Assembly: GCA_000611775.1 (NCBI GenBank)
Contig: KK106981.1
Location: 6,842,312-6,906,311 of the forward strand
Direction: 5' to 3'
DNA: 64,000 nt
From: Umbilicaria muhlenbergii
Lineage: Eukaryota > Ascomycota > Lecanoromycetes > Umbilicariales > Umbilicariaceae
The notes under the pieces are model-generated. The model was not told where the DNA came from and made no database searches. It was given only the letters and a program-made list of their open reading frames with translations. Shown here in pieces: positions 25,950 to 64,000 of this stretch. A program made the position numbers and the translations under genes. Numbering within the stretch: the stretch's first letter is position 1; each line of letters opens with the position of its first letter.

Positions 25950-28632
25950 TCATCGGGAGCCCTCAGTCTCGTCGGCACCGCTCTCGACTAAAACCTCACA
26001 TCCTTGAGCGAAGAATATTCGCGCACGGTTCTCGTAGGGATTCGCGATGCTGTAGATATTTCCTGCAACAGAATCGAGTGTTAACATCAACTGCTTTCTT
26101 AAACAAAACATTTCGGACACCTAGGTCGCTGATAAGAATGGTCAAAGTAGGGGAAATGCAAGTAGTAACCCAAATACAAAAATGCACAAAAGCAGTATGT
26201 TGAAGAAATATGACCAGACCATAATTGGGGCACTTCACGACGCGAATGCACTATATACTAGGCGTCTCCGGCGCTCAAGTGTACTTCTTGCCCATTGTGC
26301 TTAGCACGCCTATTAATGTTGATCGGAAGCGTAGCATCGCTCTTGATTTCCATTCCAGACATAGAAGTGCAACGGAATCCTGGGTGCGCGACACATAATG
26401 TTCTCAGGAGGGGCAAAGAATTTCGTGATACAAACTGAACAGAAAATGAAGTAGGGTCTCTCAGTGTCGTGGACCGGAGGAAGAGAAAGGGACGGGCAAG
26501 TGCACAAACTAGAATATGAGAAAATTCTACTCACCCCTCGGGACCTGCCACATGCCTCCCTTTCCAATGCTAAAGTTCGTGTTCCCAACTTTGACCATGA
26601 CCCGACCGTAAAAGACGAAGAACACCATCTGCATCTTTCGAGAATTCTTGAGCCGTTTGACGCCGCCAGGTGGAAGGTCCACCACTCCAGAACCAAAGAA
26701 TGGTAGCGTAAGTATCTTCGCATATCGAAATTCGCTGCCTGCTACTTCACGAGTCTGGATTGCTCCTGCAGCATATGCGAGTTCTGTAACAGGAGTCAGT
26801 TTACCTATGGCTTACAGGAAGAAGGATTTGATGTCAGTGCGTAACTGACCACTCTCTTCGATTGCGTCTTCATTGCCTTTACCGATCATCGGATCCCACT
26901 GCATGACATCTCCCCGCATAATAGGCACCTCTTCTGCTTCCCAAGGCTCCTGGTCTTCATCTTCCTCTTTCAGATCAGCAAGTTGTCGCTTCTTGTGTGA
27001 TCCTGTTCGCCGTCCTGTTGGTCGCTTTGCCCGCGGCTGCTCAAGCTCTTCAGTCCGGATAACTTCTTTGATACCTGGCAGGACCATCGTCGAGCCGTCG
27101 TTGGTTCTATCTCCATAGACAATCCGTTCGTTTCTCCAAAATGCCATCGGTTTCACGGAAGTCCTTCCAGATCGAAGTACACGGGCTCCACTGTCATCAG
27201 CAGGAGTTTCGCTTCGTAGTACATACAGACTGCGCGGCTTCGGTCTTCCTGGAGCTTGAGGGGGTCCCATTGGCTCAGCGGTGGCCGCCTTTTCAACAGG
27301 CTTCCTCACAGATACAACTCTGGCATTGGGATCACGTTGTGAGGGTGGCGGCTTAGGAACTTTGCGCTTAACGGTGGGAGTTGCATCAACCGAAGTATGT
27401 CTTGCTCGTTTTGTGGGCCTCTGAGATGCTTCCGCTTCCTCGATGTTTTCATCTCGAAATACTTCTGTCTTTGCTATCTTTGCAGGCCTACCTCTCCGGG
27501 TTTTGGCTTCTGGAACTGGGAGCTGAGAAGCATCCAAGTCTATGGACCCTGCCTTTGGTGGCCGTCCTCGTCCCCTCTTGACAACGGATGTTGCGGCCTG
27601 GCGAGATTCTGGTTCAACCGATGCAGTCTTAGTCGACATGAGTTTTCCTGACACGCCCTTTTTCTTGCGACCTGGTTTCTGCTGCTCCGGGATTTCAGTG
27701 GTCTCGTCTAATGTCGGAGGATTATGTTGTATGTCATCATTATCCACTGTCCCCTGTGCGTCATCATGATCGTCTTGGTAATATTCATCTCCGTTGTCGA
27801 GCATATTGCTTTCCTCATTTGAGTTATCAGACACGTCGACTGCACTGGCATCGTTTGCTGTGGACTCTTCTTTCCCCTCTTTATCCTCATCGATATCAGC
27901 ACGCAAATCAAAAGGTCGATTCTTTCCTCTCCCAGATGACGGCCGTGACTTGATGCCCGCTCGGGTTGATGACGAAGAAGACAACCGCCGCCGTTTCTGC
28001 GGTGATCGCTCAACGCTTGGGTGCGCATCTTCAAGAGAAAAGTCAAGCTTTCGGTTCACCAGTGGTTGCGACATAGCTCGGCTTGGGGTATCGTTTGAGC
28101 GGCGCACGGGGGATGACATAGTTCCTACGGATCTCCGAGGCGATGAGTTTAAGGTGGTTTTTATTGGTGAACGCGCCCGCGGTGGTGGGAGTATGGTTCG
28201 GCTGCTGCGAGTATGATGTGCTGTCAAGACTTCTGTAGGCTCAGGTATAGTGCCTACACCGAGAGTACTCATTAGTATTCGTTGTAGTAATAGTACTATC
28301 GCCCTTTGGAGCTCTATCCGCGTACTTTGTCCAATATCCATATCCTCTTCCTCGATTATCGTAGCGTTCTCAACCGCGCCATTGCGCTTTGGCGGCGACT
28401 TTTCTGGTGACGAGAAGATGCCGTCGATGGGTTCGAGACCGTGCTCGTCGCGGATTCCCGTATCCTTCAAGGTGACACCGGTCTTCCTGCACAGAGCTCA
28501 GTATCAGCCAGTGCAGGCCTTCTAGAGCAAGGCAGAGCCCTCAGGATCAGTCGATGCTTACCTTCCTGCGACTCCAACATTCGAATAGTCATCCACGCGT
28601 CCATTGCGCCTGGGCGTTCTGGAGGGCTTCAT
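25950..28632 (-). CDS. MIF2: Centromere protein CENP-C / Mif2
   Basis: Mif2/CENP-C binds the Cse4/CENP-A nucleosome and anchors the inner kinetochore. Exons 28632-28562, 28486-26850, 26783-26535 and 26062-25950 join in frame to 689 residues. The N-terminus (KTGVTLKDTGIRDEHGLEPI, then DGIFSSPEK) is the Mif2 N-terminal region. The middle is long and disordered, with AT-hook-like KRGRGRPPKAG and TRRGRPAK. Then comes a CENP-C signature-like segment (GARVLRSGRTSVKPMAFWRNERIVY; the Arg and Trp match the CENP-A tail reader). The C-terminal cupin dimerisation domain is FFGSGVVDLPPGGVKRLKNS, MVFFVFYGRVMVKVGN, GGMWQVPRGN, then IYSIANPYENRARIFFAQGCEV. The cupin is interrupted by a 472-nt intron, against 75 and 66 nt for the others. 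The gene is divergent from RNH201. Confidence 0.9.
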
Positions 28633-47483: not shown

Positions 47484-49126
47484 CTCACTGGTGTGGATGA
47501 ATCCAACAAGAGAGCACCCAATCCGATCACGAGCACCCAGAGCACCGCCTTCAAGCAGTGAGGTTGACGAACGATCAGAACAAGACGAATACTCTGAAGA
47601 GGACGGCGACCAAATAACGTTTTAAGACAAGCCAATCCCACCAGCGTGGTGAGAAACATTATCCCTATCCTCCTCTCAACACAAACCCTCGAAAGACCCT
47701 AGTGCACATGGTACGGCAGGGAGACACACTGAGAACAGTGAGACCGACTTGGAAACCCACCCTAGTCAGTCAGAACCTGTGGCTCCAGATAGCGAGTTGA
47801 ACTCACTATCACATATTGACGGCGAAGCGACATCAGCCACTCCCAGGCTACCTGCCATAAGTATATGACAGGTCACTACCGGTCTACATTCTCCATTGAT
47901 CGATCCGCACACTCAAAATCAACAACTAGGTCCGCTAGATTCAGCGTGAGATGACAACATGACTTTATTCCGGATTTCAGAGTTCACTGAGGAGCCAGGA
48001 GAGTGCGTCAAGACGTTCATCTGACTAGTCAAAGCCTCATTTGCAGGAGTATCTCACATCTATCCTACAACATCAGAGAAGGAGTCTGCCAAGATTCTAC
48101 TGTTGATCTTCAATACAGGGGGAGTAGCACAGGCATGGATTGATGATCAAGACAATGAGATAAGTGAGAACTGGCAGTTGCTTATGAAAGCACTGAAGTG
48201 TCAGTTCCTGAAGCAAGAAAGGAAGAATAGGAAACAGGAAGCCTTTTAAAAGCTCTTCAACCTTCAGCAAGGAGGCAGATCACTACAGGAGTATACAGAG
48301 GAGAGCTGAGAATTGAAGAGAGACCTCCTCAGTGAGATTGAATCAGAGATAGCTCAGCGTCTGATTGATGACCTGGATGATGAAATCACTCGTCGTGTGG
48401 TTGAGACTATGATGAGGAAAGGGGAGAAAAGGTTGAAGGACACAATTGATAAAATCAAGGGTGCCTCAGGGCTCAAGATGAGCAATGAAGTCACAAGCTG
48501 AAAGTCAGATGAGAAGGACTATACAAAGTAAGCAAGGTTGAATTCTTCAGAAGGTCAGTCTGACTACAAGATCTTCAGACACAGCAGATCAAAGAGTGTT
48601 ATCACATCAATGATGTGAAAATCTTCTTCCCACAAACTGAATTCAACCCTATTGGAACGTCATGAAGGTTGATAGTGAAGATCAACAAGGAAATCGAGAG
48701 AAAGGTGAATAAGTGAACGACAGAATAAATGAAGGCCAGAAAGAAAGCAGGCCTGCTGACAAATGAGCAGGAGGAAATCAATGAGCTTTCAGGCATCATG
48801 AGTAAAGACTTCTTTTCAGACAAAGTGATTTATCCCTCAGGATATGATGATGAGGCAGAATAATTATTCTGAAAGAGGAAGGTAGTAAACCTTCAGACCT
48901 GACTGAAGGGACTGAAGTCAGTATAATCATGAAGGCGTGAAAGAAAGACAGAGGGTAAGGTTCATCAGTGAGGGTGAAGCCTAAGGAGGAGGAAGTAATG
49001 ACAGCAGGAATTTATGCTAAACATACTCATGTTCTACCTGCTGTAGCAGGCTTACTGACCGGACTTATACACAAGCATCAGGAAAACATTCATTTACCTA
49101 TCATTAACACAGGCAATTCTGAATGG
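47484..49126 (+). mobile_element. Outer retroelement fossil, gag-like segment
   Basis: This plus-strand sequence resembles the gag region of an LTR retroelement (ILLLIFNTGGVAQAWIDDQD, ENWQLLMKALKCQFLKQERK). It is broken many times. The left end is not marked by an LTR and is placed only approximately, between about 47400 and 47650, where it abuts the permease gene. GC content and CpG frequency fall steadily from left to right. The element is interrupted at 49126 by copy A and continues at 55022-56168 and from 61964 to the window end. The family of this outer element is uncertain. Confidence 0.6.
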
Positions 49127-49397
49127 TGTCAGGTTTACGCCTGAACATTGAACTGAACTGAATGATCCGAATGATGTACCAAACTGAACGACCGAATGGG
49201 TTAGCGCTGGACGACTGAATGAGTTAGCGGCGATTTAGACTAGTGAGGATTTAGACGGATTTAGACTAGTGAGCACATAAAGGCTTTGATCTTCATGCTC
49301 TTTCTTCCTTTTGCTCCTTAGACTAGAATTCTTCTCTGTAGCTAAATGCCAGCTGTCAAAACACATACATTGATTCATAATCTGCATAGTTCTGACA
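49127..49397 (+). repeat. 5' LTR of copy A
   Basis: It begins TGTCAGG and ends CTGACA. It is 271 bp, and its counterpart is at 54768-55021. It still contains about ten CpG dinucleotides, while the 3' LTR has almost none. Confidence 0.88.
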
Positions 49398-49439
49398 TTA
49401 TTCTAGTCTCTTCCTTTATCTCCTGCCGCAAGGCAACCT

Positions 49440-49490
49440 GAATGAACCAGAACCAGAACCAGAACCAGAATCAGAACCAGAATCAGAACT
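49440..49490. repeat. Hexanucleotide repeat (ACCAGA-type)
   Basis: Tandem AACCAG/AATCAG units just inside the 5' LTR of copy A form a short microsatellite-like tract. A related, degenerate tract occurs at the mirrored place in copy B (about 61628-61665). Confidence 0.8.
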
Positions 49491-51224
49491 CAGTCATGAT
49501 GATCAGAGGAATCAGTAGTGAAGTCTACTCATGAATCAGAGAGTCTTTGTTGACTTCTGCAAATGATGAACAATTCACTTTGAATGAAAACCTGATTGAT
49601 CAGATCCTGATCACCTCAACTGCAGAGACCTTGATTAATCTCTTACAAGAACATTCCTTCAAAGCAATGACTGCTCTTTAACAATTAATCACTGATCATG
49701 AGCAGTCTTTGAACGAAATCAACACCATTATAAAGGCACACAAAGAACTACAAGCGGACTATGAAAGAATGAAAGACAAGAACAGAGAACTGAAGAAGAA
49801 AGTCATTGAACAAGTTGATGTGATAACATATCTTGAACAAAGAATCACAAGCACCCCCTGACCTGATTTCCCTCAACTCACAGTTGAAGGATCATTCAGA
49901 TTATTAAAGCTCCCTGATTCACTGATGTTCTTCAGTGACTGTTTAAAATATGATGAATGAGTAATGAAGATTAGAAACTACCTACTAGCAATGAATGAAT
50001 AATACTTCACTGAACAGATGAAAATAACATATGTGAAAACAAGAGTTGAGGGTGACCCTGTCAAACACATAAGGCTTTAAATGAATTCAGCATCTCAAAC
50101 AGCTTATTTGAATATTAATGAACTGCTAGAACATTTGACCTGAATCTACAGAGACTCAGATTAAAAATGTATCATCATTGATGAATTCTGCAAGCTTTAT
50201 CAAGAATTCAAAGACTTCTCATCCTTTTGAGCTGATTTTCAGTGATATGTTACTGAACTGAATGAGTTCTTTGATTCATACTGAATAGGAGAACTTCTGA
50301 ACAAGGTGAACAATATCATTCAACAACAGTTAAACATTAACAACAACAGATCTGAAAACCTTTATGAACTCATTAAGTGTTGTCAGTGAATCAATCAGAT
50401 CTTATGACTGCTTGATGCAAAGAAGATCATTAAATCTTAATTGAATTAAACACCTCTCTTCACAAGTCAAACTCATACAAGGATTGAATATTTTATTAAA
50501 ACCTTAAAATCAACTACCTGAATGATCACTGAGTCAGTTCCCTGAACACTGAACTGAACATCACACTCAAACATCATCAAAGAACAACAGATGAAGGAAG
50601 AGTGTTGTTTTAAATGCAATGAACAAAGGCACCTTGCCTTAAACTGTTTAAACAAGGACAAAAAGAAAGAGACTTCAACATCAAGATGTGTGTAATGAAT
50701 CATATTCAACTTCAACTCTGATTTTAAATCAGATTCAGGAAAAGGCGTTCTCTTATTAAAGTCATGATAAAGAACAATGATAATCCCCTTGTAATATCAG
50801 CACTGATGATCAATGAAGACATGCTGTTCACCTGAACATCATTCAAAGTGAATTGCAAGCTCACTCTGAATGAGGTTAAGCTATGAGTCAAGGCTTTACT
50901 TGATACTGAGTCAATTAAATATGCATTCATTAATGCTAACTTGACAAAGACTCTGATTGAATGATCTGAAATTGAGGCAGTATCACTGCCAAAGCCCTGA
51001 ACCTTACATGATTTCCAGAAAAAGACAGTGAAATGAGTTACACATGTGATTTATTCAATTATGAAGATCTGTGATCATTCTCAGTGACTCACCCTCATGA
51101 TGATTGTAGACATGAAAGATCTCAACATTATATTAAGACTTCTTTGAATGAATCACATCTGAATTTTAATCAACCCTGTGAACCAGGTAGTGATTTTCTC
51201 ACTGAATGAAGAACTGAACAAATA

Positions 51225-51370
51225 AATGAAATTAAACAAACAAACTGAACTGAAGAACTGAACACTGAATGAATGAACTGAACTGAAGAACTGAACATCA
51301 AATGAATGAACTGAACTGAAGAACTGAACATTGAATGAATGAACTCAATTGAACAACTGAATGATTGAAC
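51225..51370. repeat. CTGAA-rich tandem repeat in copy A
   Basis: About three imperfect units of around 40 bp, built of ACTGAA/AATGA words, lie between the protease and RT regions. A shorter reverse-complement version lies at about 59808-59890 in copy B, so the number of units differs between copies. Confidence 0.8.
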
Positions 51371-54300
51371 TTGAATCACTGAAAACTTATCAGATCCTGA
51401 AGAAATTCATTACAAAAACAGATCTTGAATCAGCTTCTGCATCAAAGAATAATAACCCCTCACATGCAGTTAATATCAAGATGATTGACACAGCACTGTT
51501 CATATTGAATATGAAGAAAAGCAACAAAATCTTTGTTATCTTTATTCAACAGATTGAGGAAGCATTGAACTCTGAATTGAAGTTAAATGAATTAAATATC
51601 AAGACAGTTCTTCCTTCTGAATATCATGACTTGATTGATGTTTTTTTTTAAAAAAACTGCAAATGAACTCTCTCTGCATCAACTTTATGATCACAAAATT
51701 GTTTTAAAAAGTGAGCAGAAGCTCAGATACACACCTTTTTATAATATGTCACATGAAGAACTAATAGCAGTGAAGAACTACATAAAAGACAACTTATAAA
51801 AAAGTTTCATTAAAGTCAGTTAATCATCAGTAGCCTCACTGATTCTGTTCATATAAAAGAAAGATGATTCTTTATGACTGTGCATCAACTACTGAAAGCT
51901 GAATTCAATTATGAAGAAAGACTGATACTCATTACCTTTGATTAAGGAAACCCTGACTCAGATTTCAAAGACAAAATACTTCATCAAGATTGATATACAA
52001 CAGGCATTTCACTGCATATGAATGAATCCTGATTCTGAAGATCTGATAACCTTTCAAACAAGGCATGATTTTTACAAATATAAGATCTTGCCTTTCAGAC
52101 TCACTAATGAATCAGTCATCTTTCAGCACTTTATTAATGATGTACTATTTGATTTATTGAATATTTATTATACAACATATTTAAATGATATCCTGATCTA
52201 TTCAGAGTTCCTGTCTGAACATTAAACTCATGTTTAAACTGTTCTAGAATGACTGAGGAAGGCAAATTTACAAACTGAAATCAAGAAGTGTGAATTTCAC
52301 AAGATTAAAACTCAATACTTAAAACTGATCATAAGATGTCATAACATCTGAGTAAACTCTGAAAAGATTATGATTATAAAGACTTGAGAAGTGCTCATCA
52401 ATTTAAAACAGCTGCAAGCATTTCTAGGTTTTTACAACTTCTACTGATGATTCATAGAGAGATATTTCAAAATCACAAAGCCTCTAATCAGACTGACAGG
52501 CAAGAACATACTCTTTAATATGCAAATTAAACAGTGTCTTCAAGCCTTTAGTGAACTAAAGAACTGACTGATTAACATGTTAATATTACAACACTTTGAC
52601 TGAACTTGAACATGTTATCTCAAATGTGATTCATCTGATCTGATATTCACAGGAGTACTATCTCAGAAAGATGATTAAAAATTAATGCATTCAGTGACAT
52701 TTTTCTTTAAGAAACTCATACTAACTGAATGCAATTATGAAATCTATGACAAGGAATTGTTGACTATCATTTAAAGTTTAAAGGATGACGTGCTGAATTA
52801 GCAGGAACAGAGAATTCAATTTAAATTTTAATTAATCATAAAACCTTGAAGTACTTTATGATGATCAAGAAACTGACTCACAGACAAGTCAAATGAGCTG
52901 AATTTCTCTCATAATTCAACTTTGTGATCATCTACTGAACAGGCAAGGAGAATGAAAAGGTGAATACACTCATTAAACACTTAAATGATCAACTAAAGAA
53001 GAATGAAGATGATGAGTGATTACAATATTAATCTTAAATCATGCTACTGAGTCACTGCTTAAACTCATGTATCATTGCTGAACAAAAGAAAAAAGCTCCT
53101 CAGCTTTTAAAATCAGTTGAACAAGCTCTGAATGATTCAGCCTTGAATGAATCAACTGAACAGGTCTTGAATAAAACTTTAAATGAGTTGATTACCTGTT
53201 ATGTGAAAGCAGATGATTTCTGTCAGGAAATTCTAAACCTATTATGAATCAAGGTAAGATATTCAACAAAGATCTCTCTTAATGACTGCACTGAGGACAT
53301 CAGCTGACTGCTTTATTAAGAACATGTATAAGTCTCAGGCATTGATAATGATTTAAATCAGAATGAATTACAACAATGATTGATTCAAGAAGCTCATGAA
53401 CAGCTGACAGTAAAACATATTAAACATTAAAAGACTCTGAAACTGCTTTCACGCTTCTACTACTGACCTTGAATGAATTGAATAATCAGTTATTTTATTC
53501 AAAACTGCCACATCTGCTGCTGAACAAAGAACATGAATGAGCAGTATCAAGGAACCCTGAAATCACTTTTAATTTCAAGTCATTCATGACAAGATATTTC
53601 ACTTGATTTGATTATCAGGTTACTTGAAAGTAAAGGATTCAACACAATCCTGACAGTCATTTACAAATTGATTAAGGAAAGACATTATATCTCTTACTCA
53701 ACAGATAAAGAAGAGGGAACATTAACTGAATACATTATTGAACTTTAAGTTGCTTCACAATGTATGAAGGTTTCATGAATTATCACAGACAATTACATCA
53801 GACTGAGGATCACAATTTGTAACATTACTTTGAAAATACCTGTGTGAATGACTCTGAATCAGATTGAAACCTTCAATCACTTTTCACCCTGAGACAGACG
53901 GGCAGTCTGAAAATGTAAATGCAAATGTTGAACAGTACCTTAAAGCATTTGTGAATTATCAACAAGATGATTGAGCAAAATGACTGTCAATGATTGAATT
54001 TACAGTCAACAATGCAGATTCTGACTTCATCAAAGTTTCATCATTCTTTGTAAATAAGAAATATCACTTTTGAATGAGCTTCAACCTTGAATGATTGATC
54101 ATCCTGCTGCTGACAAGAGAATGAATTCTGAAGGAAAAAGCTGATTTCATAATGAATCATATGAAAGCTTTACATATGATGTTATAAGAGAACATGACAG
54201 CAGCACAACTTCAGCAGAAAGACTTCACAAACTGAATTTAAATATTAATCTCAACATATCAAGTAGATGACCTGATATGATTGTTGATAAAAAACATTTA

Positions 54301-54767
54301 AACAACTCACTTGTTTAAAAAGCTGAATCACAAGAATGAAAGACCTTTTTGAATCAAGAAGAAAGTATCAACTTAAGCATATAAGCTTGAACTGCTTAAA
54401 TCAATGAAAATACATTCTGTATTTCACATCTTTTTATTATAACTCACTGTGAATGATCCTTTGCCTGAACAAATTGAGTCATCACCGCCATCAGTAATAA
54501 CTGAACAGGCTGAACTGAAATGAGAAGTTGAACAGATTAATGATAACTGTTGATGAAAAAATAGATTACAGTATAAAGTGACATGAAAAAAATACTCATC
54601 TGATAAGACCTGATATAATGCTGATGAATTCAAACACTCACCTGAACTGAAAGAGGCATTTCATGAAAGGTACTCAAATAAGCTGACTGAGTCACTGAAT
54701 ACATCAATGACAAAGCAGAAAGGTAAATGATCAGCTCACAGAGCTCATTAAATAAAAAAGAGGATAA

Positions 54768-55021
54768 TGTCAGATTTATGCTTAAACATTGAACTGAACT
54801 GAATGATCTGAATGATGTACTAAACTGAATGACTGAATGAGTGAACACTGAATGACTGAATGAGTTAGCAGCAATTTAAACTAATGAGTTTAATATATAT
54901 ACAAAGGTTTTAATCTTCATGCTCTTTCTTTCTTTTGCTTCTTAAATTAAAATTCTTCTCTGTAGTTAAATGTCAACTGTTAAAACACATGCATTAATTC
55001 ATAATCTGCATAGTCCTGACA
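54768..55021 (+). repeat. 3' LTR of copy A
   Basis: It begins TGTCAG and ends CCTGACA. It is 254 bp, preceded by a purine-rich AAAAAAGAGGATAA tract. It differs from the 5' LTR mainly by transitions and by one short length change. Confidence 0.88.
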
Positions 55022-56168
55022 GATGAAGAAGGCATGTCAGTGATTAAATGTCAAACACATAACAAATCATTCATATGCAAATTTTATAAACAAGGATTCA
55101 GTTCACCTGTCATAATAAAAAGCTTCAGATGAGCAGCTGAAAGCAGATTAAAACTGTGAACAAGAAGCTCATTTATAAAGTATCAGTTGAGAATATGTCA
55201 AGAAAGTCAGCAGTAAGCAGATCAGAAGAAAGATTATTTACAGCAAGTAATTAAAACCTGAAGCTTTCACTGTTGATGAGAGTCATATAAATTAAGCCTC
55301 AGAGGCTTTACTCAATCTGATGAATGAGGACAAGATGCACTTAGCAGAATATCATCTTAAAACCTCATCATTCACTGCTATGAATGTATCAACACAACAT
55401 CAAATGTGAACATGTCATGAACAGAAAGAAGTAAAGAAGCAGTCAAAGATGATTACTACAATCTTCACTTTAACTGCAGGAAAAGCCCTGAAGAAGAAGT
55501 TTTTAAATGTGATGATGTATAAAATCATGACCTTACTGAACTGCTGAGACAGAGATATTAAAGAGAGCCTGCTCAAGGATGATCTTCATCATGAGCATGT
55601 GCATTTACACAGCTTGTTTAACACCTTTACTGTTGTCAGTGAGTCTGTGAAAATTGAAGAACAGGTCATCATCATGAGCTGAGCTCAGAGAAGTCAACAC
55701 AAGTTGATGTGATAATCATTCAGTTCACTTAAGAGTTCTTTAACACAGCAGAATACAAGGTTCTCATGATTTTTAAAAGAGCATACTTCTTCACACATCA
55801 AGGAGTGACTGCTGAAGGTCACATTGTTTTTAATAATTCACTTTTCACATCACTTATGTTTTAATTAGAAACTATAGACAGTTTTGTATGACAAGAATTG
55901 AGAGAGAGAGAAAACTTAACACTGAAGAGCAGACAACAGCATGTTAATATTAAAGATAATCTTATTCACTTCTACAGAGATATTTAATTAATTTATAATC
56001 ATAACTCTTCTTCTTTTTTACATCTTTCTCACATCATGAACTTCTGCAGTTAATGATGTTAATCTGTTTTTCTTGCTTCATGCATCAGTCTGAATTCCTT
56101 TCACAGTGAGCATTCAGATGAGAATTATATCAAGCACAATTAACAACACTGAGTCTGTCAAAGGAAGT
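55022..56168. mobile_element. Outer retroelement fossil, middle segment
   Basis: AT-rich, broken sequence lies between copies A and B. It appears to be the continuation of the outer element after the insertion of A. No domain is recognised with confidence. Confidence 0.5.
56164..56168. repeat. Target site duplication of copy B, left
   Basis: GAAGT directly precedes the left LTR of copy B, and the same five bases directly follow its right LTR at 61964-61968. Five bases is the usual length for Ty3/Gypsy integration. Confidence 0.85.
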
Positions 56169-56411
56169 TGTCAGGACTATGCAGATTATGAATTAATGCA
56201 TATATTTTAATGACTGACATTTAACTACAGAGAAGAATTCTAATTTAAGAAGCAAAAGGAAGAAAGAGCATAAAAATTAAAGTCTTTATGTGCATGTTAA
56301 CACTCACTAATTTAATCACTGTTAACTCAATCAGTCATTCAGTTCAGTTCATCATTCAGAACATCATTCAGATCATTTAATTCAATTTAATATTTAAATG
56401 TAAACCTGACA
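56169..56411 (-). repeat. LTR of copy B (3' LTR in element sense)
   Basis: 243 bp from TGTCAGG to CCTGACA, in inverted orientation to the LTRs of copy A. It matches the LTR at 61721-61963 closely. Confidence 0.88.
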
Positions 56412-57202
56412 CTACTTCTCTCTTTATTTAATGAGCTTCATGAGCTGATTATTTACTTTTCTGCCTTATCATTGATGTATTCAGTGGCCTGATCAGCTTA
56501 TTTGAGTACTTTTTATGAAATGCTTCTTTCAGTTCAGGTGAGTGTTTGAATTCATCAGTGTTGTATCAAGTCTTGTCAGATGAGTATTTTTTTTATGTCA
56601 CTTTATACTGTAGTCTGTTTTTTCATCAACAGTTATCATTAATTTGTTCAACTTCTCATTTCAATTTAGTCTGTTCAGTTATTACTGATGGCAGAGGTGA
56701 CTCAATTTGTTCAAGCAAAGAATCATTCACAGTGAATTGTAATAAAAAGGTGTGAAATACAGGGTGTATTTTCATTAACTTAAGCAGTTTAAACTTATAT
56801 ATTTAAGTTAAAACTTTTTTCTTGATTTGAAAAGGTCCTTCATTCTTGTGATTCAACTTTTTAAATGAGTGAGTTGTTCAAATGTTCTTCATTGACAATT
56901 ATATCAGGTCTCTCACTTTATATGTTAAGGTTAATATTTAAGTTCTGTTCATGAAATTTTCTTGCTGAAGTTGTGCTGCTGTCATGTTGTCTTGTAACAT
57001 CACATGTAGAGCCTTCATATGATTCATTATGAAATCAGCTTTTTCCTTCAGAATTCATTCTTTTGTCAACAGCAGGATGATCAATCATTCAGAGTTAAAG
57101 CTCATTCAGAGATGATATTCTTTATTTGCAAAGAATGATAAAACTTTGATGAAGTCAGAATCTGCTTTGTTGGCTGTAAACTTAATCATTAGCAATCATT
57201 TA

Positions 57203-58040
57203 GTTAAATAAAATAAAAAAAAAAAAAAAAAAGATATAAAAAAAAAAAAAATAATAAAAAATAAATTAAAAAACAGAAAATAAAAAAAAAGAAAAAAAAA
57301 AAATAAAAAAAAAAATAAAATTTAAAAAAAATAACAAAAAAAAAATAAAAAAAATGAAAAAAATAATAAAAAAAAAAATAAAAAAATTAAAAGAAAAAAT
57401 TAAAAAAAAAATAAAAAAAATAAAAACAAAAATTTAAAAATAAAAAAAGAAAAAAAAAATAAATAATTAATAAAAAAAAAAAAAAAAAAAAAAATAAAAT
57501 TGAAAAATAAACAAATAAATAACAAAATAATAAAAAAAAATAAAATATCAAGTAATAAAAAAATAAAAATAAAAAAAAAATATAAAAATAAATAAAAAAA
57601 AAAAAAAAAAAAATTAAAAAAAAAAAAAAAATGAAAATTAAAAAAAAAAAAACAAAAAAAAAAGTAAAAAAAAAAAAAAAAATAAAAGAATGTAAAAAAA
57701 ATTAAAGAATAAAAGTAAAAAAAAAAAAATAAAAATAATAAATAATGAAATTATAAAAAAAATAAAAATAGTAGATAATATAAATATAAAAAAAAAAAAA
57801 ATAATAAAACAAAAAAATATAAATAATAAAAAAATTAAAAGAATAAAAAATAAATAAAATAAAAAAAAAAAAAATTAAAAAAATAAATAAAATAAATAAA
57901 AAAAAAATTAATAAAATAAAAAAAAAAAAAAAATAATAAAATAAAAAAAAAAAAAAAAAAATAAAAAGATTAAAAAAAAAAAAAAAAAAAAAAATAAAAA
58001 AAAAAAAATAAAAACAGAACAAAAAAAAAATAAAAAAATA
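57203..58040. repeat. 838-bp block of almost pure A with scattered T, G and C
   Basis: The plus strand is overwhelmingly A here, with isolated T, few G and C, and no repeated unit. The flanks on both sides align to copy A (reverse complement): the left flank to about 53980 and the right flank to about 53145. The block thus stands in place of about 835 bp of copy A. Where I compared columns at the two ends, most of the surviving non-A bases equal the base in the matching column of copy A. The block is therefore a position-preserving conversion to A, not an inserted poly-A. A poly-Phe open frame on the minus strand here is meaningless. Confidence 0.8.
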
Positions 58041-61000
58041 AATTATTAAAAGAATATTAAGCTAATTTTAAAAGATGAGAAGCTATTTAATTTTGTTAAA
58101 AAATGATACATAAGTTTAAGCAGCAGCTAAATAGCATGATTTAAAATTAATATAATAATCACTAATCATCATCATTCTTCTTTAGTTGATCACTTGAATA
58201 TTTAATGAGTGAATTCACCTTTTCATTTTCCTTGCCTGTTTGATAAATGATCACAAAGTTAAATTATAAGAGAAATTCAGCTCATTTGACTTGTCTGTGA
58301 GTCAATTTCTTGATCATTATAAAGTACTTCAGGGCTTTATGATCTGTTAAGATTTAAATCAGATCCTCTGTTTTAATCAGTTCAGTACATCATTCTTTTA
58401 AACTTTAAATGATAATCAACAATTCCTTGTCATAAATTTCATAATTGCATTCAGCTGGTATGAGTTTCTTAAAGAAAAATGTCATTGAATGAATTAATTT
58501 TTAATCATCTTTCTGAAATAGTACTCCTGTGAATAACAGATCAGATGAATCACATTTAAGATAACAAGTTCAGATTCAGTAAAAGCATAATAATATTAAC
58601 ACATTAATCAATCAGTTCTTTAATTCACTAAAGGCTTGAAGACATTATTTAATTTATATATTAAAGAGTATATTCTTGCCTGTCAGTCTGATTAAAGACT
58701 TTGTGATTTTGAAATATCTATATATAAATCATCAGTAGAAGTTAAAAAAAATTAAGAATACCTGCAACTGTTTTAAATTAATGAGCACTTCTTAAGTATT
58801 TATAATCATGATCTTTTCAGAGTTTACTCAGATGTCATGACATCTTATGATCAGTTTTAAGTATTGAGTTTCAGTCTTGTGAAATTCACACTTCTTGATT
58901 TCAGTTTGCAAATTTGCCTTTCTCAGTCATTCTAGAACAGTTTGAACATGAGTTTAATGTTCAGACAGAGATTCTGAATAAATTAAAATATCATTCAAAT
59001 ATGCTGTACAGCATGTGTTCAATAGATTGAATAATACATTGTTAATGAAGTGCTGAAAGGTGACTGATTCATTAGTGAGTCTGAAAGGCAAGACCTTATA
59101 TTTGTAAAAATCATGTCTTGTTTAAAAGGTTGTCAGGTCTTCAGAATCAGGATTCATTTATATGCAGTGAAATGCCTGTTGTATATTGATCTTGGTAAAG
59201 TATTTTGCCTTTGAAATCTGAGTCAGGGTTTCCTCAATTAAAGACAATGAGTATCAGTCTTTCTTCATAATTGAATTCAGCTTTCAGTAGTTGATGCACA
59301 GTCATAAAGAATCATCTTTCTTTCATATAAACAGAATTAATGAAGTCATTGATGATTGATTAACTTCAATGAAACCCTTTTGCAAGTTGTCTTTTATGTA
59401 ATTCTTCACTGCTATCAGTTCCTCATGTGACATATTGTAAAAAGGTGTGTATCTGAGCTTTTATTCACCCTTTAAAATGATCTTGTGATCATAGAGTTGA
59501 TGTGAAGAGAGTTCATTTGCAGCTTTTTTGAAAAAAACATCAATCAAGTCATGATATTCAGAAGGAAGAATCATCTTGATATTTAATTCACTTAACTTTA
59601 ATTCAGAGTTCAATGCTTCCTTAATCTGTTGAATAAAGATTATAAAGATTTCATTGCCTTTCTTCATATTCAATGTGAACAGTGCTGTGTCAATCATCTT
59701 GATATTAACTGCATGTGAGGGGTTATTACTTTTTAATGCAGAGGCTGATTCAGGATTTACTTTTGCAATGAATTTCTTCAGGATCTGATAGGTTTTCAGT
59801 GATTCAGGTTCAGTTGTTCAGTTTCATTCAGTCATTCAATGTTGTTCATTCATTCAGTTTCATTCATTCATTCAGTCATTCATTCAGTGGGAAAACCACT
59901 ACCTGGTTCACAGGGTTGATTAAAATTTGAGTGTGATTCATTTAAGAGAGTCTCAGTATAATGCTGAGATCTTTCATGTCTACAATCATCATGAGGGTGA
60001 GTCACTGAGAATGATCACAAATCTTCATGATTGAATAAATCACATGTGTAACTCATCTCACTGTCTTCTTCTGAAAATCATGTAAGGTTCAGAGCTTTGA
60101 CAATGATACTGCCTTAATTTCAGATCATTCAATCAGAGTCTTTGTTAAGTTAACATTAATGAATGCATATCTGGTTGACTCAGTATCAAGTAGAGCCTTG
60201 ACTCATAACTTGATCTCATTCAGAGTGAGCTTGCAATTCACTTCAAATAATGTTCAGGTGAACAGAATGTCTTCATTAATCATCAACATTAATATCACAA
60301 GGGGATTATCATTGATCTTTATCATGACTTTGATAGAGGAACGCCTTTTCCTGAATTTAATTCAAAATCAGAATCAGAATCAGATATGATTTATTACACA
60401 TGTCTTAATGCTGAAGTCTTCTTCTTTTTATCCTTGTTTGAACAGTTTAAGGCAAGGTGTTTTTGTTCATTATATTTAAAATAATGTCCTTTCTTCATCT
60501 GTTGTTCTTTGACAGCGTCTGAGTGTGATGTTCAGTTCAGTTGTTCAGTTCAGTTCAGTGTTCAGGGAACTGACTCAGTGATTGTTCAAGTAGTTGATTT
60601 TAAGATTTTAATGAAATGTTCAATCCTTGTATGAGTTTAACTTGTGAAGAGAAGTGTTTAATTCAGTTAAGGTCTGATGATCTTCTTTACATTAAACAGT
60701 CATAAAGTCTGATTGATTCATTGACAGCACTTAATGAGTTCATAAAGATCTTCAGGTCTGTCATCATTAATGTTTAATTATTGTTGAATTTTGTTGTTAA
60801 CCTTGTTCAGAAGTTCTCCTATTCAGTATGAATCAAGAAGCTCATTCAGTTCAGTAACATATTACTGAAAATCAACTCAGAAGGATGAGAAGTCTTTAAA
60901 TTCTTAATAAAGCTTGTGAAATTCATCAGTGACAGTACATTTTCAATCTGAGTCTCTGTAAATTCAGGTCAAATGTTCTAGCAGTTCATTAATATTTAAA

Positions 61001-61720
61001 TAAGCTGTTCAGGATGCTGAATTCATTTAAGGTCTTATATGTTTAACAGAGTCACTCTTGATTCTTGTTTTCATGTATGTTATCTTTATCTGCTCAGTGA
61101 GGTATTATTTATTCATTACTAGTAGATAGTTTCTGATCTTTGTTACTCATTCATCATATTTTGAACAGTCATCAGAGAACATCAGTAAATTAAGAAGCTT
61201 TGATAATTTAGATGATTCTTTAACTGTGAGTTGAGGAAAATCAGGTCAGAGAGTGCTTATGATTATAATTCTTTATTCAAGGTATGTTATCACATCAGCT
61301 TGTTCAGTAATCTTTTTCTTCAATTTCTTGTTCTTATTCTTCATTCTTTCATAGTTCACTTGTAGTTCTTCATGAGCCTTTATAACAGTGTTGATTTTAT
61401 TCAAAGACTGCTCATGATTGATAATCAATTGTCAGAGAGTAATCATTGCTTCAGAGGAATGTTCTTGTAAAAGATTAATCAGGATCTCTGCATTTAAAGT
61501 GATTAAAATCTGATTAATCAGGTTTTCATTCAAAGTGAATTGTTCATCATTTACAGAAGTCAACAAAGACTCTTTAATTCATGAATAAACTCTGCTATTA
61601 GCTCCTCTGATCATCATGATTAATTTCTGATTCAGGTTCAGATTCTGATTCAATTTCAATCTGATTCAGAATTTATTCAGGATGCCTCATGACAGAGAAT
61701 AAAAAAAGAGACTAAAATTA

Positions 61721-61963
61721 TGTCAGGACTATGCAGATTATGAATTAATGCATATGTTTTAACAGCTGACATTTAACTACAGAGAAGTATTCTAGTCTAA
61801 GGAGCAAAAGGAAGAAAGAGCATGAAAATTAAAACCTTTATGTGCACATTAACACTTACTAATCTAATCACTGTTAACTCAATCAGTCATTTAGTTCAGT
61901 TCATCATTCAGAACATCATTCAGATCATTTAATTCAATTTAATGTTCAAGTGTAAACCTGACA
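61721..61963 (-). repeat. LTR of copy B (5' LTR in element sense)
   Basis: 243 bp from TGTCAGG to CCTGACA, followed directly by the right-hand GAAGT target duplication (61964-61968). Confidence 0.88.
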
Positions 61964-64000
61964 GAAGTGAATATTGAACATTTAATAAAAAAACTCTGCC
62001 TCATACACTCCTCACTGAACAAAGATCTCTATAATGTCAGTCAGCAGAATAAAGGTTAATGAAAGCTCAGTTAAATCATCACCTGAATCAGCAGATCTGG
62101 CTGAAGTTTCAGTTATGACAAGTATACATCAGGTGAATGAAACCTCACATTCACCTTCACTTACACTTATAAGATCTCAGTCAACTTATGAGCAGCAAGT
62201 TCACCTCAAGAAAGCATGAATGAATAAATTAAGAAAGTGATTAAAACTGAGACTGAATGATTTAAGTTTGAGAGAAGAGCAAGGGAACAATGAAGAGAAA
62301 TCATCTTAAAGAAAGCAGTTAAGAAAAGCAGCTCAATTGTTGACTTAAGTAAATTAAAATAAATCTGAGGATTATGTGAAAGATGCTGATAAAAGCATAA
62401 AATCATCTCATTCACTTGATTCAAGAAACAAGTTTCAACTGAGCACTTTCTTAATAAAAAAGAGTGCTCTACAGAATCTGTCAACTTTAATAATATTAAA
62501 ATTAATCAAATTAAGTGAATCATCTGCTTCAAAATACTGACTGAAGATCACACAGAAGCAAATTAATGCTCTTAAAAAATTAACTGAAGATGAAGATATT
62601 CAAGAGAAGGTTAATTTAACAACATTAAAATACTCAGATCAAGTTTTAAAGTGTATAATTATTAAACTTTCAGAAGATGTATTTAAGATCTTGTTAAAAA
62701 AGATGAGTGATTCACAGAGAAGTTCAAGAAACATATTAATGAAAAAGTTCATAATCAGTCAGTCAGTCAGCAAGAAGTGCAAGAGACTTATTATTAAAAA
62801 CATCAAGAACAAGATCTCAGATCAGAACTGAAATGTATTAAAGAATTAACAAAAGACAGATCAAGAACTCATCACTTTAACATGTATCAAGATTAAAACA
62901 AACTGATATCTTGAAGTGTTTTATTATTTCAATCAGAGAAAAATACTCTACAAAGAGTACTGACACCTGATGAATATGATGAACAGCAATGAGATCAAGT
63001 ACTTGAATGATGAGCTCTTAAGAAAGCTTATTGACAACCTGAAATGATGAAAGAAGAGAACTGAAAACTCAGGCTTATTTAAGATGAAAGGCATACAAAT
63101 TTAAAGGATGAAACAAATAAATGATAATTATAATCTGTTTACAGAGAAGTTCAAAAAGGCCTTAAAATTAAAGAAAAAAAGAAAGTTAACAGATTTTATC
63201 AAGCAGGAGCTCATCTATCAAAGTTTATATTTAAATGACACTGTGAAACCTGAGTCTTTGGCTAAAGTCAGGTAAATGAAACAGCAGCAGTGAGAATCAA
63301 AGACTTTCATCAAAGGCAGCATGATTAAATTTGTGACAGCTATGAAGCTTGAACATGAAATAATAATCACATGAAACACTGTCAATATCACCCTCATTGA
63401 GTGAAATGCTCAGCTTTAATAGCTATCAATCAATGCAGTAGAAGAGGTGAACATGATGATGATATTCATTTAAAAGCAGCAAGTCAGGATTCAAGCTTTA
63501 AATGAAAAGATTCAGAATTTGAGAAGTCAGTTGAGATTGTCAGCTGAGATTGAATATAAAAGCATGATATGAGAATTAATGAAGAAGAAAGAAATCTCTC
63601 TCTTTTTAAGTGATGAATCTCTGAAGAAGGCTGACAGCAATGATATGAGCAGTGAAATCAATTAAAGTGTCAGAGTCATCATATATAATAGTATGACAGT
63701 ACAACAATATAACAAAATGACAGTACATCATTATAACTCATTTATATGATGACTCAGTGAGTAGTGTCTTGACATCAAGTGAAAACTCTTCACAAAGAGG
63801 TTCAGAAACCTGCTTCCTCAGTGATCAGTTTTTACCACTAAATAGAAGATGTATAATCACTGCATTAACTTTATCATGACTATATTGTTTACAACACTTC
63901 ATTCAATACTTATATGACCTCATGTTGTATATTAATCTTTTACATACTAATCACTCAGTACCTTCAGGTGAACGGTCACATCAAAAGCAAAATAAAACAT
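61964..64000. mobile_element. Outer element fossil, right segment (to window end)
   Basis: AT-rich sequence continues the outer element after copy B. A plus-strand coding past is suggested by long stretches of charged, helix-like residues (Lys/Glu/Ser/Leu-rich) with many breaks, but I recognise no reverse transcriptase, integrase or transposase. The family is undetermined and the element runs off the window. Confidence 0.45.

Follow-up and report, generated by a model that had tools for sequence, protein, structure and literature searches.

Results

Host retroelement and its sister copy

The window, that is, the whole stretch of DNA analysed here (64,000 nucleotides; G000:C1:6842312-6906311), belongs to the assembly searched here, which comprises 7 contigs with a total of 34,788,950 bases. 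The gene-rich part of the window is fungal nuclear DNA, as indicated by a Mif2/CENP-C N-terminal domain (PF15624, E 2.6e-29) in the reading frame 26812-28470 on the minus strand. A Pfam search matched one of five proteins; two open pieces, one from each of the retroelement copies described below, gave no match to Pfam, and another protein search gave no match. The A-rich block under study lies within one of these two copies:

49127-55021, plus strand: copy A, the inverted sister used for comparison in the original prediction
56164-56168, no strand assigned: left target duplication of copy B, GAAGT
56169-61963, minus strand: copy B, the LTR retroelement in which the block lies, with LTRs at 56169-56412 and 61721-61963
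61964-61968, no strand assigned: right target duplication of copy B, GAAGT

Copy B has the features of an LTR retrotransposon, namely LTRs of the form TGTCAGG...CCTGACA and an exact 5-bp GAAGT on both sides. Its coding strand would be the minus strand, judging from a segment at 59464-59817 that we take to be an RT-like motif. Since GAAGT is found on both outer sides, the two ends of copy B probably stem from one insertion and the join itself is probably right. The sequence thus suggests that the contig is correctly joined here, and a false join of two different insertions is less likely given the identical GAAGT on each side.

The left LTR of copy A (49127-49397) contains 9 CpG and 41% G+C, while its right LTR (54768-55021) and both LTRs of copy B contain no CpG and 28-31% G+C; repeat mutation seems to fade toward the outer end of copy A. 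In the A+T-rich part at 49001-57000, CpG is found at 0.08 of expectation, TpA at 0.56 and TpG at 1.65. Classical RIP targets CpA and would increase TpA; the pattern here does not look like it.

Composition of the A-rich block

The original prediction described a nearly pure A block of 838 bp, and a letter count confirmed this, with 689 A among the 838 bases of 57203-58040. Outside the block there was no 50-base stretch with at least 35 A, and none with at least 35 T. Genome-wide, 23-mers of A (up to one mismatch) clustered at the block alone, the nine other places being single short homopolymer tracts.

We aligned the block to the column counts of 30 genomic copies, copy A included. These 30 were taken from 43 matches; the 1.4 kb copy A query gave at least 43, with 40 of 131 candidates scored. 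Both flanks of the block align to copy A and to the majority letter of the 30 copies, so that position is kept, as had been proposed. In 57204-58030, 120 of the 144 non-A letters agree with the majority letter in their own column, as compared to a mean of 33% (sd 4%) in 394 other registers, a control set which still includes the +33 register later found relevant. The earlier observation, made by eye, that surviving letters equal those of the sister copy in the same column is therefore borne out.

The survival of letters in the block is non-random. Columns with a majority A stay A (241/246), and the other columns mostly become A (T 210/306, C 112/136, G 117/136), leaving 94/306 of the T, 9/136 of the C and 17/136 of the G. 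At the most conserved columns T survives in 69/205 cases and at the least conserved ones in 3/22, which would follow if copy B often has C at the latter. A strong dependence on neighbouring letters was rejected, as none stood out; positions 57715-57785 were left out of that analysis, of the runs test and of the rows marked 'excl', and are included in the other base-outcome and register counts.

Transversions dominate these changes, with T to A in 210/306 and C to A in 112/136 columns; RIP was accordingly rejected as the cause, and the statement that C-to-T repeat mutation cannot make the block holds. The retroelement copies outside the block differ mainly by C/T and G/A transitions, as under the RIP of fungi. 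The block, in contrast, is not confined to C-to-T and G-to-A changes: most of its changes are T-to-A, C-to-A and G-to-A, and of these three RIP could account for G-to-A alone.

Agreement of the surviving letters in two registers

The same 144 letters also match the retroelement 33 columns further on, with 109/144 in agreement compared to 120/144 in register 0 and 62/144 in the next best register. The block thus agrees with its relative in two registers, as an overlay of two layers requires. The rule is that a letter is kept where the element shows the same letter in its own column and 33 columns on, and is otherwise A. This rule was correct at all 152 columns of 57345-58021 that are at least 97% conserved in both registers. 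Where the two conserved letters agree, the letter is kept (57/57, 18 of them A); where they disagree, the block reads A (95/95, including 19 columns with no A in either layer). Other merge rules, such as the alphabetically first letter or a bitwise AND of two-bit codes, were rejected, because all 19 columns with a C/T or G/T disagreement carry A.

On the reading developed below, the affected stretch would consist of the following parts:

57206-58042, no strand assigned: A-rich block, an out-of-register overlay of two sequences with disagreements written as A
57206-57345, plus strand: layer 1 is retroelement and layer 2 the right end of a high-copy repeat, called X (21/21 letters agree with X)
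57346-58021, no strand assigned: both layers are retroelement, 33 columns apart (register, likelihood and lag tests), with a poorer fit at 57684-57863
58022-58042, no strand assigned: the layers return into register, at a place where copies vary in length
58043-58798, no strand assigned: in-register overlay, normal sequence with scattered A for C or T (pyrimidine-column counts)

The +33 offset gave a log-likelihood of -162, while 1598 other offsets gave a mean of -571 (sd 35) and -453 at best. A comparison inside the block, which makes no use of other copies, pointed the same way: 45 of 48 pairs of non-A letters 33 bases apart are equal, compared to a mean of 33% unequal pairs over lags 5-119. 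The three unequal pairs are all C against T, indicating that the layers are not identical. Moreover, simulated overlays of random real copy pairs at offset 33 (300 draws) gave 82.0% A, 1.6% C, 2.6% G and 13.7% T, and 57346-58021 shows 81.8, 1.2, 2.5 and 14.5%, respectively; the rule thus predicts the composition. Under this rule T survives best because T occurs on this strand more often than any other letter.

The fit is poorer at 57684-57863, where register 0 accounts for 27 of 43 letters, perhaps as a result of a local length difference. It should be noted that copy A contains a tandem array with a 33-base unit (51231-51361), which equals the overlay offset and lies elsewhere in the element; this match is probably due to chance.

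Left end of the block

The +33 register fails to fit 57206-57345. In this part the second layer matches repeat X: all 21 non-A letters of the first 140 bases agree with the X copies at loci L032, L010 and L019, and 20/21 agree at L033, L015 and a second place in L019, whereas controls with shuffled letters and positions (n=15) peak at 16-18. The first mismatch to X is at 57356, and X itself ends at ~57345. The copy number of X is high (288 candidates, with 97-100% identity across 158 bases among the 40 scored). X has a sharp end, and adjoins or sits inside retroelement copies (L010, L015, L019, L032, L033, L043-L054).

Since layer 2 agrees with X at the left, it begins inside X, and a contig could plausibly break inside such a repeat. 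The affected stretch starts at 57206, as the letters at 57203 and 57205 are non-A despite differing from layer 2.

A search for the junction of X with the element elsewhere in the assembly (up to 3 mismatches) found none, the one hit not reading as X; the reversed-pattern control gave 3 hits. As this junction turned up nowhere else, copy B may in truth be structured differently from its stored form. It is possible, though we hold it to be unlikely, that the sequenced locus carries X inside the retroelement, in the column aligned with ~57379-57382, that this arrangement was lost in assembly and that the overlay hides a real feature. In a bolder form of this idea, two versions of the locus, differing at ~6% of pyrimidine columns, may have coexisted in the sequenced culture.

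Right end and tail

The copies vary in length at ~58022-58042, with relative offsets spanning ~100 bases among 30 copies. To the right of this point, copy B reads A at 22 of 418 pyrimidine (C/T) columns in 58041-58840, the last at 58798, compared to 0/309 onward to 59440 and 0/524 in the left flank. Other copies (n=25) each show 0-3 such A on the right and 0-5 on the left; 25 of the 30 copies were used on each side, five having failed the length cut. Sixteen of the 22 scattered A stand at C/T-variable columns, and at G columns of 58041-58840 copy B has A in 66 cases against 51.3 expected. A second count on a wider alignment gave A at 25/388 pyrimidine columns, 20 of them C/T-variable, with 106/388 columns variable overall. 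An in-register overlay of two sequences that differ by transitions would give this pattern. The affected stretch therefore reaches ~58798 in thinned form. The A-rich block proposed at 57203-58040 is there, with its start corrected to 57206 and with this tail lying beyond its proposed end.

A two-layer path over 57206-58799 gave a log-likelihood of -504 compared to -1735 for one layer. In this path the two layers share one register to the right of 58042 and are offset by 33 columns across most of 57345-58021; over 57206-57344 the path wanders, since the profile used lacks repeat X. With average letter frequencies, one layer fits better than the two-layer model in four of the seven 100-base segments from 58106, so that the case for the tail rests on the A at pyrimidine columns. 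Only one of these lies in 58213-58491, where the overlay may be patchy.

The divergence of the layers in the tail, ~6%, is low compared to that of copy pairs (mean 14.2%, 5th percentile 8.75%, minimum 6.1%; 435 pairs) and lies also below the mean distance of a copy to the majority, 9.2%. This would fit two closely related layers, or a layer that is itself a consensus collapsed from several copies. Among the 56 loci fetched, none fits as a layer throughout, and the idea that a layer is identical to a known copy was rejected on this ground. Short segments are fully matched by some loci (23/23, 18/18, 11/11 and 19/19 letters), and the best fits in five tail segments are 53/54, 103/107, 121/128, 86/89 and 94/97.

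Discussion

Taken on its sequence, the A-rich block almost certainly is an artefact: two repeat sequences were merged in an overlay of ~1.6 kb (57206 to ~58798), and A was written wherever they disagreed. It is not a biological feature. The original prediction had favoured an artefact in the data, whether through storage of unknown bases as A or through failure of a consensus step. This main reading is supported, and the rule behind the artefact has now been found. The base-by-base overwriting with A that it described is right in that position is kept; it is not right as to the process, in which a second sequence was compared and the agreeing letters alone were kept.

Could a single sequence have given the block? 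If the unknown or low-quality bases of one copy had been masked at random and stored as A, position would be kept and all changes would be to A, as observed, and the survival of neighbouring T columns indeed looks random (runs test, z 0.42). Yet survival differs strongly between T, C and G, the log-likelihood falls to -298 with a free rate per base and to -317 with one rate compared to -162 for the overlay, and both the +33 agreement and the equality at lag 33 are left without reason. The register, likelihood and lag-33 results refute such masking, to which we give very little weight.

Less probable still is a superposition of Sanger traces from two templates differing by 33 bases in length, with mixed peaks called A. 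Such traces are also ungapped, and length variation among the copies is indeed found at the switch point; but a base caller would not turn every mixed peak into A, as is the case here in 95/95 columns, and one Sanger read is shorter than the ~1.6 kb affected. The biological alternative named in the original prediction, a strand-specific process of error-prone synthesis or repair that put A opposite almost any template base, would account for changes to A on one strand with position kept. A polymerase, however, would not spare a base because it matches the letter 33 columns on, nor because it matches the unrelated repeat X, and this dependence excludes the process for practical purposes.

The overlay most likely arose at a contig join. 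Overlapping contig ends, both from the same degraded retroelement family, would have been laid over each other without gaps. From 58043 rightwards the layers would be in register, with few disagreeing sites. Anchored at the right, the ungapped overlay would have slipped by 33 columns at ~58022-58042 and stayed slipped leftwards, without re-alignment; further left, layer 2 would enter repeat X and stop at 57206. What can be read from the letters themselves is the keep-if-equal rule, the agreement at +33, the presence of a second repeat and the scattered A of the tail. Each disagreement probably held an ambiguity letter or N that was then turned into A. Ambiguity letters or N become A in programs knowing four letters only, and a program of this kind was presumably responsible. 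A literature search for such an A-writing artefact found no paper.

Mis-merged contig ends and collapsed repeats occur in genome assemblies. The present case resembles them in involving a high-copy repeat and two non-identical sequences, one layer starting inside another high-copy repeat. It differs in that disagreements became A, not N or an ambiguity letter, and in that the overlay was not re-aligned after the length difference.

These findings remove the startling claim that some 840 bases were converted to A base by base. The 1.6 kb at 57206-58798, which correspond to G000:C1 6,899,517-6,901,109, should be masked. The tail also serves as a warning, as the same error there resembles ordinary C-to-A and T-to-A mutation. 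As an assembly error the case is otherwise ordinary and worth flagging, and it offers a test for any assembly, in which A-rich stretches are screened for non-A letters that agree with a relative in two registers.
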